Shown here: piece after piece, positions 2,860 through 8,380 of the stretch | Layout of the letters: the number at the start of each line of letters is the position of its first letter | How positions within the stretch are numbered: position 1 is the stretch's first letter | Assembly: GCA_023249255.1 (NCBI GenBank) | Contig: JAHFCY010000138.1 | Span: 1-8,933, forward strand | Reading direction: 5' to 3' | Source of the DNA: Candidatus Lindowiibacteriota bacterium | Lineage (GTDB): Bacteria; Lindowbacteria; 2-12-FULL-62-27 | Length of the DNA: 8,933 bases | Translations under genes and position numbers: made by a program | The notes under the pieces: generated by a model | What the model saw: the letters and a program-made list of their open reading frames with translations, nothing else | What the model was told of the DNA's origin: nothing | The model's database searches: none

Positions 2860-3891
2860 ATGTCGGACGAGGACAAATTTTCAAAATATCGCCGGGCAGG
2901 CGGGACGGACCGGCCCGCGACATGGCCGGGCTGGGTGGTGGCCGGAATTCTGCTTGCCGGCGCTCTTGCGGCGTGGCTCCACGCGATTCCCGTTTATTTC
3001 CCGTCGGCCAAATCCGCCGCCGGAGGCAAATCGGCGGAACTCTCGGCCACGGTCGTCAAGTCATGGCGGCATCCGGGAGAACTGGCCATCGTCTATCTGG
3101 ATATCGGCCAGGGAGACGCGGCCTTCATCCAGACGCCCCGCGGCCGGACGATGCTGATCGACAGCGGCGAGGGCAAAAGTCCCGACAACCGCTATCTCAA
3201 ACCCGTCGACGCGGCGAACAAGGTTATTCTTCCATTTTTGAAACAAATCGGTGTCTCCCGCATCGACATCGTCATCGCAACCCATCCGCACAGCGATCAC
3301 ATGGGATCCATGTACGAAATCGTCGGCAACGACGGCGTCGAGATTGGACAGGTCTGGATTTCCGGATTTGTCCATCCGACTTCGGCGAACAAGAAACTTC
3401 TGGCGGCCATCAAGCGCCGGCAAATTCCGCTCTACTCTCCCAATCTTGACGAATTGCCGATGAAACTCGATCTTGGTTCGGAAGTCGCCGCATACGTCAT
3501 GTACGGCGATCCGAACGCCGACAGCCCGAACAATTCGTCGGTCGTCGTCAAATTGGTCTATGGCCGCGTGTCGTTTTTGTTCACGGGCGACATTGAAGCC
3601 GACGCCGAGAAGGCCTGCGCGATGCGATGGGGCAATGAGATCAAGTGCGATGTGCTCAAGGTGGCGCATCACGGCAGCCGGACATCCAGTACGCCCGTGT
3701 TCATCAACCTGGCCAGGCCGGCCGACGCCATCGTATCTGTCGGCTCCTACAACACGTTCGGCCATCCCACCCCCGCGGTGATGGAACGCCTGCAGGCATC
3801 CGGCGCCAAAATCCATCGGACGGACGAACACGGATCAATTTTCGTGTTTTCGGACGGTAAATCCTACCGGATCGAACCATCGAGGCTGTGA
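2860..3891 (+). CDS. Membrane-anchored ComEC-type metallo-beta-lactamase-fold hydrolase
   Basis: A 343-residue MBL-fold protein of the ComEC/Rec2 C-terminal type, probably a metal-dependent nuclease or phosphodiesterase. After a charged N-terminus (KYRR) comes one membrane segment (about 24-47); positive charges before it predict N-in, with the catalytic domain outside. That domain (about 73-340) shows YLDIGQGDAAFI (79-90), MLIDSGEG (98-105), the complete metal motif THPHSDHMG (141-149), FTGD (241-244), KVAHHGSRTS (267-276) and the closing SYNTFGHPTP (296-305). Every metal ligand missing from the MBL domain of the upstream ComEC is present here, so I infer that this protein supplies the activity in trans. 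Spacing to the preceding stop is 9 nt, with AGAGG at 2851-2855 close to the ATG. Two other family roles cannot be excluded: a secreted hydrolase unrelated to DNA, or a regulator of uptake. The fold call is firm, the substrate is not. Confidence 0.9.
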   Translation: MSDEDKFSKYRRAGGTDRPATWPGWVVAGILLAGALAAWLHAIPVYFPSAKSAAGGKSAELSATVVKSWRHPGELAIVYLDIGQGDAAFIQTPRGRTMLIDSGEGKSPDNRYLKPVDAANKVILPFLKQIGVSRIDIVIATHPHSDHMGSMYEIVGNDGVEIGQVWISGFVHPTSANKKLLAAIKRRQIPLYSPNLDELPMKLDLGSEVAAYVMYGDPNADSPNNSSVVVKLVYGRVSFLFTGDIEADAEKACAMRWGNEIKCDVLKVAHHGSRTSSTPVFINLARPADAIVSVGSYNTFGHPTPAVMERLQASGAKIHRTDEHGSIFVFSDGKSYRIEPSRL

Positions 3892-3895
3892 CCGG

Positions 3896-4531
3896 ATGAT
3901 GCGAAAATTTCAGAAGGGCGAATGGATCGTGCTGGCGGCGATGTGCGCCACCGCGCTCGCCGGATGCGCCCGGAAAGAGGATATGCCGATTCTCGCTTTG
4001 GCGAAGATGGCCGAGGTGAACCCACCCGCGGCGAAAATTCCGGCTGACGCGGTTGCGACCGACACATCACCCGGTTCCGCGGTTTCAGTTGTTGAACACA
4101 TCGACACGCCGGCTGCCAATCGGAAGACCGAGACCGCACCACCGACTGCGACGGATTCCGAGCCGGCTTCCGGCTCCGAATCGGAATCTCGCGCGTCAAG
4201 AAAGAAAGAGGCGCCGGCCGAATCGGTCAACATCAACACCGCCGACGAGGATTCACTGGCCACTGTGCCGGGGATTGGCCCGAAAATGGCCGACGCCATC
4301 ATTCAATATCGGCGGGAAAACGGCCCGTTCAAATCGACCGAGGATTTGATCGGCAACGTCCGCGGTATCGGAGAAAAAAAATTCGAAAAAATGAAACCAT
4401 TCATCACCGTGGGCGACACCGAAACCGGCGCAACAACCCCGTCCCTCGCGGCTGATACAACCCCGGCCGGAACCGTCGACACCGCATCAACCGCTGCCGC
4501 CGCGGGCGACACAGCAACCGACACGCCATGA
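3896..4531 (+). CDS. HhH (ComEA-like) DNA-binding lipoprotein
   Basis: A 211-residue predicted lipoprotein. The signal peptide (about 1-23) ends in the lipobox LAGC with the lipidated cysteine at residue 24; the next residues are Ala-Arg, not Asp, compatible with outer-membrane sorting in a Gram-negative cell. A disordered, Pro/Ala/Ser/Glu-rich linker (about 40-108) leads to a single ComEA-type HhH unit (about 110-172) with SVNINTADEDSLATVPGIG and VRGIGEKKFEKMKPFI. The last 39 residues are low-complexity Thr/Ala/Asp. It is most similar by eye to the second HhH unit of the upstream tandem ComEA protein (shared NTADED and PGIG), suggesting duplication within the locus. Lipid tether plus long linkers suggests a DNA catcher reaching from a membrane, in line with a receptor role before ComEC. 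The start could be the ATG at 3896 or the adjacent ATG at 3899. Its stop overlaps the following ATG (ATGA at 4528-4531). Confidence 0.86.
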   Translation: MMRKFQKGEWIVLAAMCATALAGCARKEDMPILALAKMAEVNPPAAKIPADAVATDTSPGSAVSVVEHIDTPAANRKTETAPPTATDSEPASGSESESRASRKKEAPAESVNINTADEDSLATVPGIGPKMADAIIQYRRENGPFKSTEDLIGNVRGIGEKKFEKMKPFITVGDTETGATTPSLAADTTPAGTVDTASTAAAAGDTATDTP

Positions 4532-4851
4532 GCGTCACGCCCTCCGGTCTTGGCGAGTTCAGCTACTGCAACAAGAAATGGGCGCTGGCCCGGAAATACG
4601 GCCATCTCACCCGGCAAGCCATCGAACAAAAAATTGCGGAAATGTCCCAGACCGGCCAGACCGGCGGCGACGAATTTTCGCTCTATCAGCGCATGCTGAC
4701 CGCACAGGCCCGCCTCGACGCGGGAACAGCTGCGCATACCAGCCACGCGCGATCCGCCGGTGCGGGGCGGCAGGCGGCGTCGACATCCTGGATTCTGGCC
4801 GTGGCCGCTGTCGCTCTGGCCGCCGTGGCGATTTATCTGCTCGCGCACTGA
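4528..4851 (+). CDS. Small tail-anchored protein resembling the N-terminal part of a Cas4-like Fe-S nuclease
   Basis: A 107-residue protein with a soluble N-terminal part and a C-terminal membrane segment (about 87-105, ending almost at the C-terminus). Arginines before the segment and none after it predict the soluble part in the cytoplasm. I do not recognise it as a named family, but two features match the N-terminus of Cas4/RecB-type PD-(D/E)XK nucleases: FSYCNKKWAL (11-20), like the Y-x-C-P-R-x-x-x-L segment that donates the first Fe-S cysteine, and AGTAAH (65-70), like the G-x-x-x-H motif that precedes the catalytic core. C14 is its only cysteine. The very next gene lacks exactly these elements and starts with a membrane segment, so I infer a two-subunit enzyme. 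ATG overlaps the previous stop by 4 nt; no clear Shine-Dalgarno, so coupling is likely. The gene itself is well supported by operon position; the Cas4 reading is moderate. Confidence 0.75.
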   Translation: MSVTPSGLGEFSYCNKKWALARKYGHLTRQAIEQKIAEMSQTGQTGGDEFSLYQRMLTAQARLDAGTAAHTSHARSAGAGRQAASTSWILAVAAVALAAVAIYLLAH

Positions 4852-4852
4852 T

Positions 4853-5395
4853 ATGTTCGCTTTCACTCTGTTTCTGCTGGCCGCGGCTCTGGTCTATTTC
4901 GCGTGGGACCTTCGGCGCGTGGCGGCGCGCAAGGCGGAGGAGACGGGCGTGGGAGGGAGCGTGCTCTACAGCGACGCCGACCATGAGCGGCCGACCGAGC
5001 CTCTGGCCTGCGAGCTTCCGGATGGCGGACGGCTCGTCGGCAAACCCGACTATCTCCTGAAACGCGACGGCAAAATCATTCCGCTCGAATACAAATCGAA
5101 TCGCGCGCCCGAACGGCTTTTCCCAAGTCACGAGGAACAGGTCGGCGCGTATTTTATTTTGATCGAATCCCGATTCGGTCCGGGTGCGGTTCCGGATTAC
5201 GGACTTGTCCGGTTCGGTGACGGGAAGGAATTTTCGGTCGAAAATTCCGCGCGCCTTCGGGAACGAGTCCTCGCGCACGCGAAGATGATGCGCGCCATCG
5301 AGACGGGCGGAGTGGAAGCGCGCCGAAATCACGAAAGCCGGGCCAAATGCGCGGCCTGCGAATTTTTCCCGGTCTGTGACGAGCGTATCGCGTAA
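4853..5395 (+). CDS. Membrane-anchored Cas4-like PD-(D/E)XK nuclease, C-terminal part with Fe-S cysteines
   Basis: A 180-residue protein, short for a whole Cas4. An N-terminal membrane segment (about 2-18) is followed by DLRRVAARK, so the positive-inside rule puts the catalytic part in the cytoplasm. The core has the PD-(D/E)XK signature: GKPDYLL (63-69, D66), PLEYKS (77-82, E79 and K81) and the Cas4/RecB-type QxxxY motif (Q96-Y100). The C-terminus carries CAACEFFPVC (166-175), a C-x2-C-x5-C cluster that in Cas4, AddB and AdnA-type nucleases binds [4Fe-4S] together with one cysteine far upstream. That fourth cysteine and the early histidine motif are absent here but present in the preceding gene. 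I chose the ATG at 4853, one nt after the previous TGA (TGATATG), over an in-frame ATG at 4760 whose added residues are Arg/Pro/Trp-rich shadow sequence of the upstream gene. A single-base frameshift splitting one gene is the main alternative. Confidence 0.87.
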   Translation: MFAFTLFLLAAALVYFAWDLRRVAARKAEETGVGGSVLYSDADHERPTEPLACELPDGGRLVGKPDYLLKRDGKIIPLEYKSNRAPERLFPSHEEQVGAYFILIESRFGPGAVPDYGLVRFGDGKEFSVENSARLRERVLAHAKMMRAIETGGVEARRNHESRAKCAACEFFPVCDERIA

Positions 5396-6136
5396 ATGGA
5401 CATCGAACGCATCCGGAATGAACAACGTCATTTCGACGTCGTCGCCGACCACGAGGGGTTCAGCTGGTGGGGCGTCGGCACGCCCGCGGGAAAACTTCGA
5501 ACGGAACGCCGGGCGGGTTTCGTCCGGGACGCGCTCGGGCCGGCGCCGGAGAAAATCATTCTCGAAATCGGCTGCGGATCAGGCGAGATCACGCCGTATC
5601 TGTCCGGACATTTCAAACTCGTCGTCGGCGTCGATGTCTCATTCGGCCTTCTCAAAAAATTCAACAGCCGCCTGAGCGGCACGGCGGCCGCCGGCGTTCT
5701 GGCCGATGGAGAGCGTCTGCCGTTCAAGGAACGCAGCTTCGACGGCATCTGCGGCAACAACATCCTGCACCATCTGGAACTGGACATCATCCTGCCGGTC
5801 TGCGCGCGATACCTCAAACCGGGCGGCCGGCTGGCTTTCGCCGAGCCGAACCTGATGAACCCGCAGAACTGGATTGAAAATAAAACGTTTGTCCGAAAAT
5901 ACAGACCCTATTCGCCGGATGAAATGCCGTTCACGCGGTGGCATGCCGTGAACAAACTCGCCCGGCATGGATTTCGAAACGCACGGGTGAGGCCATTCGA
6001 TTTTCTGCATCCAAGCACCCCGACCGGCCTCATCCCGGCGGTCTCCGCCCTCGGCCGGATGCTTGAATGGTTTCCGCCGACGCGCGAAATCGCCGGCTCC
6101 ATGATCATCTCCGCGCAAGCTCCGGAAACCATGTAA
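5396..6136 (+). CDS. Class I SAM-dependent methyltransferase (Methyltransf_11 type)
   Basis: A 246-residue cytosolic methyltransferase of the Rossmann-like class I fold. Motif I, which binds the methionine part of SAM, is ILEIGCGSGEI (55-65); the acidic residue after strand 2 is in VVGVDVS (76-82); ADGERLPF (103-110) and SFDGICGNNILHHL (114-127) follow; the post-core strand is YLKPGGRLAFAEPN (139-152). The C-terminal part, with WHAVNKLARHGF (182-193), is the usual variable substrate cap. There is no catalytic NPPY or DPPY motif typical of amino-group DNA methyltransferases, and no PC motif of cytosine-5 enzymes, so DNA is an unlikely substrate; a small molecule, lipid or sugar precursor is more plausible. 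It starts directly after the previous stop (0 nt gap) without a clear ribosome binding site. Its link to the uptake genes is positional only, and I cannot name the reaction. Confidence 0.88.
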   Translation: MDIERIRNEQRHFDVVADHEGFSWWGVGTPAGKLRTERRAGFVRDALGPAPEKIILEIGCGSGEITPYLSGHFKLVVGVDVSFGLLKKFNSRLSGTAAAGVLADGERLPFKERSFDGICGNNILHHLELDIILPVCARYLKPGGRLAFAEPNLMNPQNWIENKTFVRKYRPYSPDEMPFTRWHAVNKLARHGFRNARVRPFDFLHPSTPTGLIPAVSALGRMLEWFPPTREIAGSMIISAQAPETM

Positions 6137-6142
6137 TTCCGC

Positions 6143-8380
6143 TTGCTCACCCTCGCCAACCTATCGTTTGAGGAACAACGGCAGGTCGATACCCTGCTGG
6201 CGTCGCTTGATCCCGGCATTCAGCCCGCCGTCCATTCCCTGTTTACCGGCCTGAACCGCGAGCAGGTCGCGGCGCTGGCCCATCCGCTCTCCGCCGGAAA
6301 ACCCCTGCTGATCATCGCGGGCGCCGGAAGCGGCAAGACGTCGGTCCTCACGCGTCGCGTCGCGCTTCTGCTTCTCTCCGGCATTCCACCCGATCTGATT
6401 TTCGTTTCGACGTTCACGGTAAAAGCCGCCGGCGAGATGAAAGAACGCATCGGCCATCAGCTCGAGAAATTGGCGCAGGAATCCCACGGGCCGCTCAAGG
6501 CGAATCTCGATCTGCTCCTCGCGTCATTCACCAACGCCTGGATCGGAACGTTTCATTCGCTGTGCCTGCGAATGTTGCGGGAAAAAGGGCCTGAAGGGGT
6601 TTCTCCCATCGAGGAACTTGGCTTTCCACCGGCCGTTCAAATTCTCTCGGACGCCGAATCACGCCGGATGCTGGCCGAAATCCCGGCAGGCGCGGCGGTG
6701 AAAGCCGACGTGAGGGAAATCGCGGCCGCGATGGATCTTGCGGCCAATGATCTTCTGACGCCGGAAACGCTCGCGGCCAAAAAAACCTGCGGCTCCCTGC
6801 CGGCCGACCTCGTCGCCGAAACCTGGCGGCAGTACGCCGACAAAAAACGAGCGGCCGGCATGGTCGACTTCACCGACCTTCTCTATCTCGCCGCAACTGC
6901 GTTCGCCGACCGCCGGCCCAGCGCCCAACGCTGGAAAACGCGATTCACACATGTTCTGATCGACGAATATCAGGACACGAATATCGCGCAGTACGCCATC
7001 GCGACGGAACTGGCGGCCGCCCACCGCAATCTCTTCGTCGTCGGCGACGATGACCAGAGCATCTATCGTTTTCGCGGTGCGGACGTTCGAAACATCCGCG
7101 CGTTCACGGCCGACTATTCCGACGCCCGCGTCGTCCGCCTCATCCGGAATTACCGCTCGTCGCCCATCATCCTCGGCGCCGCAAACGCGCTTCTGGCAAG
7201 CCGTCCCACAAGCGAAATCGACAAGACGCTCCTTGCGTCGGCGCCGGCATCCGACAAACTGCCGGACAAGATCACCGTGTACGAAGCGGCCGACGACGCC
7301 GACGAAATCAATTTCGTGATTTTTCAGATTCGCGAATTGCTGAAAGAGGGATTTCGCCTGTCCGACATCGTCATCTTCTACCGCGTCCATGAATTCTCCG
7401 AAACGGTCACGTCGCATTTCCGCGCGCAGAATGTTCCGTTCGCCGAGGTCGGCGGGAAATCTCTTCTCGACCATCCGCTGGTTCATTCGATGCGCGCGCT
7501 GATCCTCGCCGTGAACGCCGTGGCGGCGAAATACGCCGGACGATTTGATATTCTTCGGGACGGCTTGGTCTTGCGCGAGGCCCTGCGCGATGTCTGGTCG
7601 ATCGGCAAGTTAGGCCCGAAAAATCGGGAAGATCGCGCGATGTTCGAGTCTCTACCGGCCCCCGAGCGCATTCTGCTCGAGGAACAGGGATACGTCGAGG
7701 CGGTCCACGCCTGCCGCAGCGGCGATTCCCAGCAGCATCTTGAACGCCTCTGGAGCGCGATCCACGGGGCCGCGCAGGGACTGGCGAGCGCAACGCCCCG
7801 GCAAGTGACGCATTTTCTGGTTGACACGCTCGATATCCGAACTCTTGCGAATGAGGATGCCGGCGTTCGAAAAGGCCTGGTCGTTTTTGAGAAATTTTTG
7901 TCGTCGCGCCTGCCTTTCGCGCCGGCCGGCCGGGAGGGATTTGACCTTCTGCTGTCCGCGTTCGAATCGGGCCAGAAAGGCGAGCCGTCCGCCGATCTTG
8001 TGGCAGACGACGCCGTCCGCCTCATGACGATCCATGCGTCGAAGGGACTCGAATTTCCGGTCGTGTTTGTGATCGGCGTCGAGGAGACGATCCTGCCGTT
8101 CGTCCACATGCAGGCCTCCAGGGAATCCGATGCCGAGCGGCGGGAGAGCGAAGAGGAGGAACTGCGGCTGTTTTACGTCGCGATCACGCGGGCCAAGCAC
8201 CGCCTCTACCTGACGAGCGCCGCCCGACGCGCATGGTATGGCCGCCAGGTCACGCACGTCCCTTCACGCTTTTTGTCCAAACTTCCCAAAGAACTCACAA
8301 CCCGCGGATCCGCCCTCTCCACCGCCGACCGCGCCGCCCACCGCACCAAACAGTTTTTCAAGGACATGTTCGGCGGATGA
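6143..8380 (+). CDS. UvrD/PcrA/Rep-family ATP-dependent DNA helicase (SF1A)
   Basis: A 745-residue 3'-5' DNA translocase/helicase. All SF1A motifs are in order: Q motif LNREQ (37-41), Walker A AGAGSGKT (59-66), Ia FTVKAAGEMKERI (91-103), Ib IGTFHSLCLRML (134-145), Walker B DEYQDT (274-279), III VVGDDDQSIYRFRGA (299-313), IV RNYRSS (335-340), V TIHASKGLEF (629-638) and VI FYVAITRAKHRLYL (677-690). Length is normal for UvrD/PcrA. The TTG at 6143 is the only credible start: an in-frame TAA lies 6 nt upstream and the first internal ATG falls after motif Ia. This gives a leader of about 35 residues before the Q motif, longer than usual. No nuclease domain follows, so any nuclease partner must be separate; the Cas4-like pair two genes upstream is a candidate. 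General repair roles are an equal possibility. It ends with FFKDMFGG and lacks an obvious PCNA or UvrB interaction motif. Confidence 0.94.
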   Translation: MLTLANLSFEEQRQVDTLLASLDPGIQPAVHSLFTGLNREQVAALAHPLSAGKPLLIIAGAGSGKTSVLTRRVALLLLSGIPPDLIFVSTFTVKAAGEMKERIGHQLEKLAQESHGPLKANLDLLLASFTNAWIGTFHSLCLRMLREKGPEGVSPIEELGFPPAVQILSDAESRRMLAEIPAGAAVKADVREIAAAMDLAANDLLTPETLAAKKTCGSLPADLVAETWRQYADKKRAAGMVDFTDLLYLAATAFADRRPSAQRWKTRFTHVLIDEYQDTNIAQYAIATELAAAHRNLFVVGDDDQSIYRFRGADVRNIRAFTADYSDARVVRLIRNYRSSPIILGAANALLASRPTSEIDKTLLASAPASDKLPDKITVYEAADDADEINFVIFQIRELLKEGFRLSDIVIFYRVHEFSETVTSHFRAQNVPFAEVGGKSLLDHPLVHSMRALILAVNAVAAKYAGRFDILRDGLVLREALRDVWSIGKLGPKNREDRAMFESLPAPERILLEEQGYVEAVHACRSGDSQQHLERLWSAIHGAAQGLASATPRQVTHFLVDTLDIRTLANEDAGVRKGLVVFEKFLSSRLPFAPAGREGFDLLLSAFESGQKGEPSADLVADDAVRLMTIHASKGLEFPVVFVIGVEETILPFVHMQASRESDAERRESEEEELRLFYVAITRAKHRLYLTSAARRAWYGRQVTHVPSRFLSKLPKELTTRGSALSTADRAAHRTKQFFKDMFGG

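Follow-up and report, generated by a model that had tools for sequence, protein, structure and literature searches.

Two adjacent bacterial genes as the probable halves of a membrane-anchored Cas4-type Fe-S nuclease

Two adjacent open reading frames, A and B, are present in the 8,933-nucleotide stretch of DNA analysed here (hereafter, the window), and the evidence largely supports the view that one Cas4-type Fe-S PD-(D/E)XK nuclease is encoded in two pieces, the N-terminal half in A and the C-terminal half in B, with the split located between two membrane helices. The probability that A and B form a two-chain, membrane-anchored nuclease of the Cas4 type is, in our estimate, roughly 85%. The features of the locus considered below are as follows.

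2–2149, + strand: ComEC, start cut off by the contig edge; operon neighbour
2146–2850, + strand: helix-hairpin-helix (HHH) protein
2860–3891, + strand: metallo-beta-lactamase-fold (MBL) protein of the ComEC cluster; operon neighbour
3896–4531, + strand: ComEA-like helix-hairpin-helix protein; operon neighbour, outside the nuclease
4528–4851, + strand: ORF A, 107 aa; Cas4-type nuclease N-terminal half, then membrane helix
4567–4569, + strand: C14 codon of A, predicted fourth cluster ligand; lines up with the leading cysteine of one-chain Cas4
4789–4845, + strand: membrane segment of A (WILAVAAVALAAVAIYLLA), mean hydropathy 2.58
4853–5395, + strand: ORF B, 180 aa; membrane helix, then Cas4-type nuclease C-terminal part
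4853–4912, + strand: membrane segment opening B; long helix 2–31 in the B model
5396–6136, + strand: methyltransferase
6143–8380, + strand: UvrD-type helicase; operon neighbour, two genes downstream of the pair

The genes are thus arranged on one strand in the order ComEC, HHH, MBL, ComEA, A, B, methyltransferase and UvrD, and they overlap or are separated by gaps of a few bases. The ATG of A overlaps the stop codon of the ComEA-like gene, while its TGA occupies positions 4849–4851; B begins one base later, in a different frame.

An earlier note on the window had read three elements in A, namely C14, a G-x3-H motif (G66-x3-H70) and a hydrophobic, membrane-type C-terminal segment (WILAVAAVALAAVAIYLLA), and all of these are present, the named residues at the numbers that it gave. 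The same is true of B, in which an N-terminal hydrophobic segment is followed by D66, E79-x-K81, Q96-x3-Y100 and the cysteine cluster C166-x2-C169-x5-C175. Across ten deeply diverged B proteins, G63, P65, D66, E79, K81, Q96, Y100, C166, C169 and C175 are invariant. Searches with B against protein families returned partial matches: that to PF12705 (E 3e-9) begins only at profile position 100, that to the Cas4 family TIGR00372 (E 2e-13) only at position 67 of 180, and that to PF01930 at position 54 of 160. The equivalog cut-off of TIGR00372 (65 bits) was reached neither by B (50.6 bits) nor by a naturally fused A-B protein, L045 (57.2 bits). When the B profile was aligned to that of one-chain Cas4, it covered columns 70–191 (hhalign probability 99.5%, E 2e-22). 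Likewise, the predicted structure of B (pLDDT 84) matches Cas4 7mi4 over residues 51–178 only (Z 12.7), and the solved structures nearest to B by sequence are those of Cas4 8d3l and 4r5q. B is a Cas4-type nuclease without its beginning, and it is A that supplies this beginning.

Window A gave no match in Pfam and a match at chance level only in NCBIfam. It scored 34 bits with a profile built from 14 other A proteins, the window being excluded, and the best of 5000 shuffled sequences scored 11.4 bits against the A profile. A profile of 11 other A proteins aligned to columns 3–53 of one-chain Cas4 (hhalign probability 93%, E 3e-7), with the A cysteine placed on the first cysteine of Cas4 and G-x3-H on the same columns in both. 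The proposal that A and B hold complementary Cas4 elements is therefore upheld by the profiles, which occupy columns 3–53 and 70–191, respectively. In the pair of Paludisphaera borealis the division is visible against a single Pfam family, A falling on positions 2–43 of PF12705 and B on positions 101–246. Window A is itself divergent and contains an insert between C14 and H70. Three other A proteins of 150–160 aa (L153, L154 and L155) carry an insert between the cysteine and G-x3-H, in a similar place to that of window A.

The motifs are well kept among relatives. In all 48 split pairs the cysteine of A and the CxxCx5C cluster are retained, as are G-x3-H in 46, G-x-PD...ExK in 45 and QxxxY in 46. 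The family also includes proteins in which the A part, two membrane helices and the B part form one chain. Such natural fusions, for which the earlier note had suggested a search, were found in several families (L012–L018, L021, L022, L024, L025, L027, L029, L031, L032, L056, L057, L119 and L121). One natural fusion yields a single PF12705 match spanning 6–246. For the fusion L045, an AlphaFold model was obtained (pLDDT 85, pTM 0.72) from an alignment without the rows of window A and B, which were misaligned with the fused proteins; long helices at 41–85 and 103–131 separate the two halves. Residues 6–278 of this model match residues 5–214 of Cas4 7mi4 with a Z score of 16.5 and 167 aligned residues, and the prediction for the natural fusion is thus a single Cas4 domain formed jointly by the two halves. 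The pair accordingly displays features of the Cas4 family in the broad sense, namely a PD-(D/E)XK core, one plus three cysteines and a G-x3-H histidine ahead of the core, and the Cas4 fold over both halves is predicted for a natural fusion.

It might be argued that A and B are separate proteins, B being a nuclease by itself and A, with a vestige of the Cas4 N-terminus, serving as its regulator or membrane partner. The divergence of window A, its insert between C14 and H70 and its modest sequence match would agree with such an interpretation. However, the first cysteine and the histidine are missing from B and are retained by A in 48 and 46 of the 48 pairs, respectively; fused A-B forms exist; and A is practically never found without B. 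We consider this explanation improbable and favour the two halves of one nuclease.

In order to assess the relation of the two proteins to the membrane, their hydrophobic segments were scanned in the 48 split pairs. A strong hydrophobic segment ends A in all 48, and one is present at the start of B in 42, as judged by a crude scan in which several of the remaining B sequences were fragments trimmed at the domain start. L091 illustrates this: its scanned B fragment was trimmed, and the full-length B opens with an evident membrane segment. The mean number of lysines and arginines went from 2.7 before the A helix to 0.6 behind it, and from 1.2 before the B helix to 3.7 behind it. The positive charges thus flank each helix on the side of its soluble part, and both soluble parts are therefore predicted to be cytoplasmic, as the earlier note had claimed on the basis of the positive-inside rule.

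The search for the pair in other genomes, also suggested in the earlier note, showed it to be present in at least six phylum-level lineages, and the frame relation of A and B varies among the lineages (0, 1 or 2). Apart from the genome of the window, the carriers include a broad set of metagenome-assembled genomes (MAGs) that bear the labels Deltaproteobacteria, Myxococcota and Bdellovibrionota, members of a large phylum for which G105 was the entry point, the phyla of G143 and G151, and the plasmids of two Planctomycetota isolates, Paludisphaera borealis PALBO2 and Singulisphaera acidiphila pSINAC03; the latter plasmid was typed as conjugative. A B-like fragment was detected in Planctomyces SH-PL62. 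In one MAG, B is frameshifted into two overlapping pieces (L053 and L030, the same locus).

Among 121 genomes of the phylum of G105, A was found in 38 and membrane-type B in 37, all 37 being shared (matches with E up to 1e-10 for A and up to 1e-23 for B, counted by hand, with the one-chain protein of G449 left out). The sole genome with A and no detected B, G488, is a MAG of 82% completeness, and an A without B, which the earlier note had named as an observation that would speak against its proposal, is thus confined to 1 of 38 genomes. Where B at first seemed to lack A in some genomes of this phylum, A turned up several hundred bases further upstream, beyond an intervening gene or on a separate contig. 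A sample of 96 genomes around G010 gave 42 with an A match and 42 with a B match (E 1e-3); all 41 genomes with strong A matches (4e-9 or better) have B, and the remaining matches are to long one-chain frames. The two genes reside on different contigs in G463 and G522, and another gene sits between them in G439 and G506. Co-occurrence of A and B that are not linked provides strong evidence for joint function.

These data also bear on whether the assembly merely shows a single Cas4-like gene interrupted by a one-base error, which the earlier note had listed among the outcomes that would refute its proposal, or by a recent frameshift. The arrangement in the window, with the two frames adjacent, one base apart and differing in phase, could suggest this. 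However, in at least six phylum-level groups the split always falls between the two membrane helices, with frame relations of 0, 1 and 2; pairs also occur with intervening genes or on separate contigs, as well as in completely sequenced plasmids of isolates. Because the pair recurs across lineages and frame relations, we rejected a frameshift or assembly error for the A-B family, and we attach next to no probability to it. The A-B split is old and general. An ordinary one-chain Cas4 at the position of A-B was likewise discounted; the other Cas4-like match of the genome, C352, is a distinct protein of one chain. In G001, a genome of the family to which the window belongs, positions 1258–2967 of L005 (C6) encode a one-chain Cas4-Cas1-like fusion, and the membrane pair was not found in this genome.

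A tree of 87 B domains was computed by a quick method from 127 columns, a small number, with the window on a long branch. It placed 74 membrane-type rows, the window included, opposite 13 soluble Cas4 rows, with an SH-aLRT value of 99 for the separating branch. The fused rows are scattered among the split ones, which forces at least two changes (six on the tree itself). Since fused rows are nested within split rows, the fusion is most simply regarded as secondary to the split form. One group of proteins (L031–L034, L056, L057 and L119) has lost the histidine and has an aspartate or other residues in place of the glutamate, with the lysine also lost in L056 and L057, while the four cysteines and the membrane helices are kept. 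These losses suggest that some members may not cut, and the nucleases of this branch, which may still bind a cluster, are probably inactive or altered. One genome, G090, has a degenerate fused copy (C59) and an intact split copy (C56).

Of the known systems, Cas4 itself (TIGR00372, PF01930; PDB 7mi4, 8d3l, 4ic1 and 4r5q) is closest to A-B, being both the best structural match (Z 16.5) and the best sequence match among solved structures. The two have in common the fold, the four cysteines and the order of motifs (C, GxxxH, D, ExK, QxxxY, CxxCx5C). Unlike Cas4, however, A-B is divided over two chains that each carry a membrane helix, and membrane-type B stands apart from soluble Cas4 in the tree and below the TIGR00372 cut-off. 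In the Fe-S nuclease domains of Dna2, AdnAB, AddB and EXO5, one N-terminal and three C-terminal cysteines hold the cluster around a RecB-type core. These domains match the fusion model with Z scores of about 9–13; each is contained in one chain, unlike A-B, without a split at membrane helices, and those of Dna2, AdnAB and AddB are in addition fused to helicases. ACE1, an Argonaute-associated Cas4 family (9iab/9iac; Z 9–10), resembles A-B in being a non-CRISPR nuclease of the Cas4 family but is soluble, single-chained and partnered with Argonaute. No cas1 or cas2 gene was found in the window or beside the other pairs examined, and A-B, with its two chains, differs also in this respect from CRISPR-associated Cas4, a single chain encoded with cas1/cas2. 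Cas4-type nucleases outside CRISPR loci, mostly inherited vertically, have been described as solo-Cas4 (PMC5704561), which is one soluble chain, whereas A-B is made of two membrane chains. In the text of that survey of the Cas4 family the word 'split' does not occur and 'membrane' occurs once. Our literature search, which covered few subscription papers and no preprints, yielded no split, membrane-bound or transmembrane Cas4.

In order to obtain clues to the function of A-B, we inspected the gene neighbourhoods. In the window, the tight operon from ComEC to UvrD, with genes overlapping or nearly touching, could mean that A-B is dedicated to natural transformation, in which it would process DNA emerging from the ComEC channel. 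However, G001 and G002, two relatives from the family of the window, have the same com cluster without A-B, which makes the link to com local, and com genes adjoin none of the other pairs examined. We therefore rejected a conserved com linkage and regard a dedicated role in transformation as unlikely. Orthologues of the MBL protein are present in two relatives that lack A-B.

Alternatively, A-B might serve as a module against phages or plasmids by degrading their DNA on entry at the membrane, a site that would suit incoming DNA. The split pairs on plasmids of cultured planctomycetes (L091, NZ_CP019084.1 30615–31396; L122, NC_019895.1 25321–26093) lie beside genes for large DNA methyltransferases or N-6 methylases, and in G151 the pair adjoins a gene for a UvrD-like helicase, followed by a DUF2290 gene and, further on, by a gene that is AIPR-like as judged by eye. 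On the other hand, the neighbours in the two largest groups are of housekeeping type, the gene tree tracks the genome groups, as expected of a resident function, and PADLOC returned only generic Cas4, DruK and UvrD/GajB models, so that we discarded assignment to a known defence system. Furthermore, one pattern search and a tblastn search found no relatives of A-B in phages and viral contigs. Defence is accordingly a tentative assignment, although better placed than transformation. The surroundings of the G151 pair (L083, 7638–10377 and 10702–12456) resemble a defence island.

In the group of G105, the gene preceding the pair appears, by eye, to be that of an RseP-like protease belonging to a housekeeping cluster. 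In many genomes of Myxococcota/Bdellovibrionota type, A-B is directly preceded by a gene for a protein of ∼165–175 aa with the motif 'DELSAYRAR' (among others, L045 5054–5569, L050 5043–5537, L039 4976–5485 and L041 4901–5395), and the examples searched matched no Pfam family; a gene for a Gly/Arg-rich protein ('SGNQRERIAIESGD') lies divergently before it. All of these neighbourhoods agree with a nuclease that meets DNA on its arrival at the membrane, and the housekeeping neighbours would fit a general repair role too. We hold a role of A-B in DNA entry to be plausible, at somewhat under even odds.

Taken as two halves of one enzyme, A and B suggest the following arrangement. A single membrane helix would anchor each chain, C-terminal in A and N-terminal in B, with the soluble parts in the cytoplasm, and the two helices would pair as the arms of an interrupted hairpin. 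A would contribute the first cysteine and the G-x3-H histidine, and B the metal-binding D, ExK and QxxxY motifs together with the remaining three cysteines, so that the heterodimer would share one cluster ligated by one plus three cysteines. The assembled domain would act as a metal-dependent DNA exo- or endonuclease at the inner face of the membrane, its most likely task being to trim or degrade DNA located there, for example DNA arriving by injection, conjugation or uptake.

Cas4/RecB-type Fe-S nucleases have so far been known as single soluble chains or helicase domains. If the proposal is true, an enzyme assembled across the membrane from two chains would represent an architecture new to Fe-S enzymes, and a DNA nuclease would be stationed at the face where DNA enters the cell. 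The A-B pair is widespread, and yet in three plasmid records A is annotated as 'hypothetical protein', B being named 'PD-(D/E)XK nuclease' or 'Dna2/Cas4 domain-containing protein'. The pairs carried by isolates, that of Singulisphaera acidiphila among them, and the natural fusions make direct biochemistry and genetics possible. On balance, we lean towards a widespread bacterial family in which one Fe-S cluster and one active site would be completed between two single-pass proteins acting on DNA that passes through or contacts the inner membrane; fusion would have followed repeatedly as a secondary step, and one branch would have changed in its catalysis.
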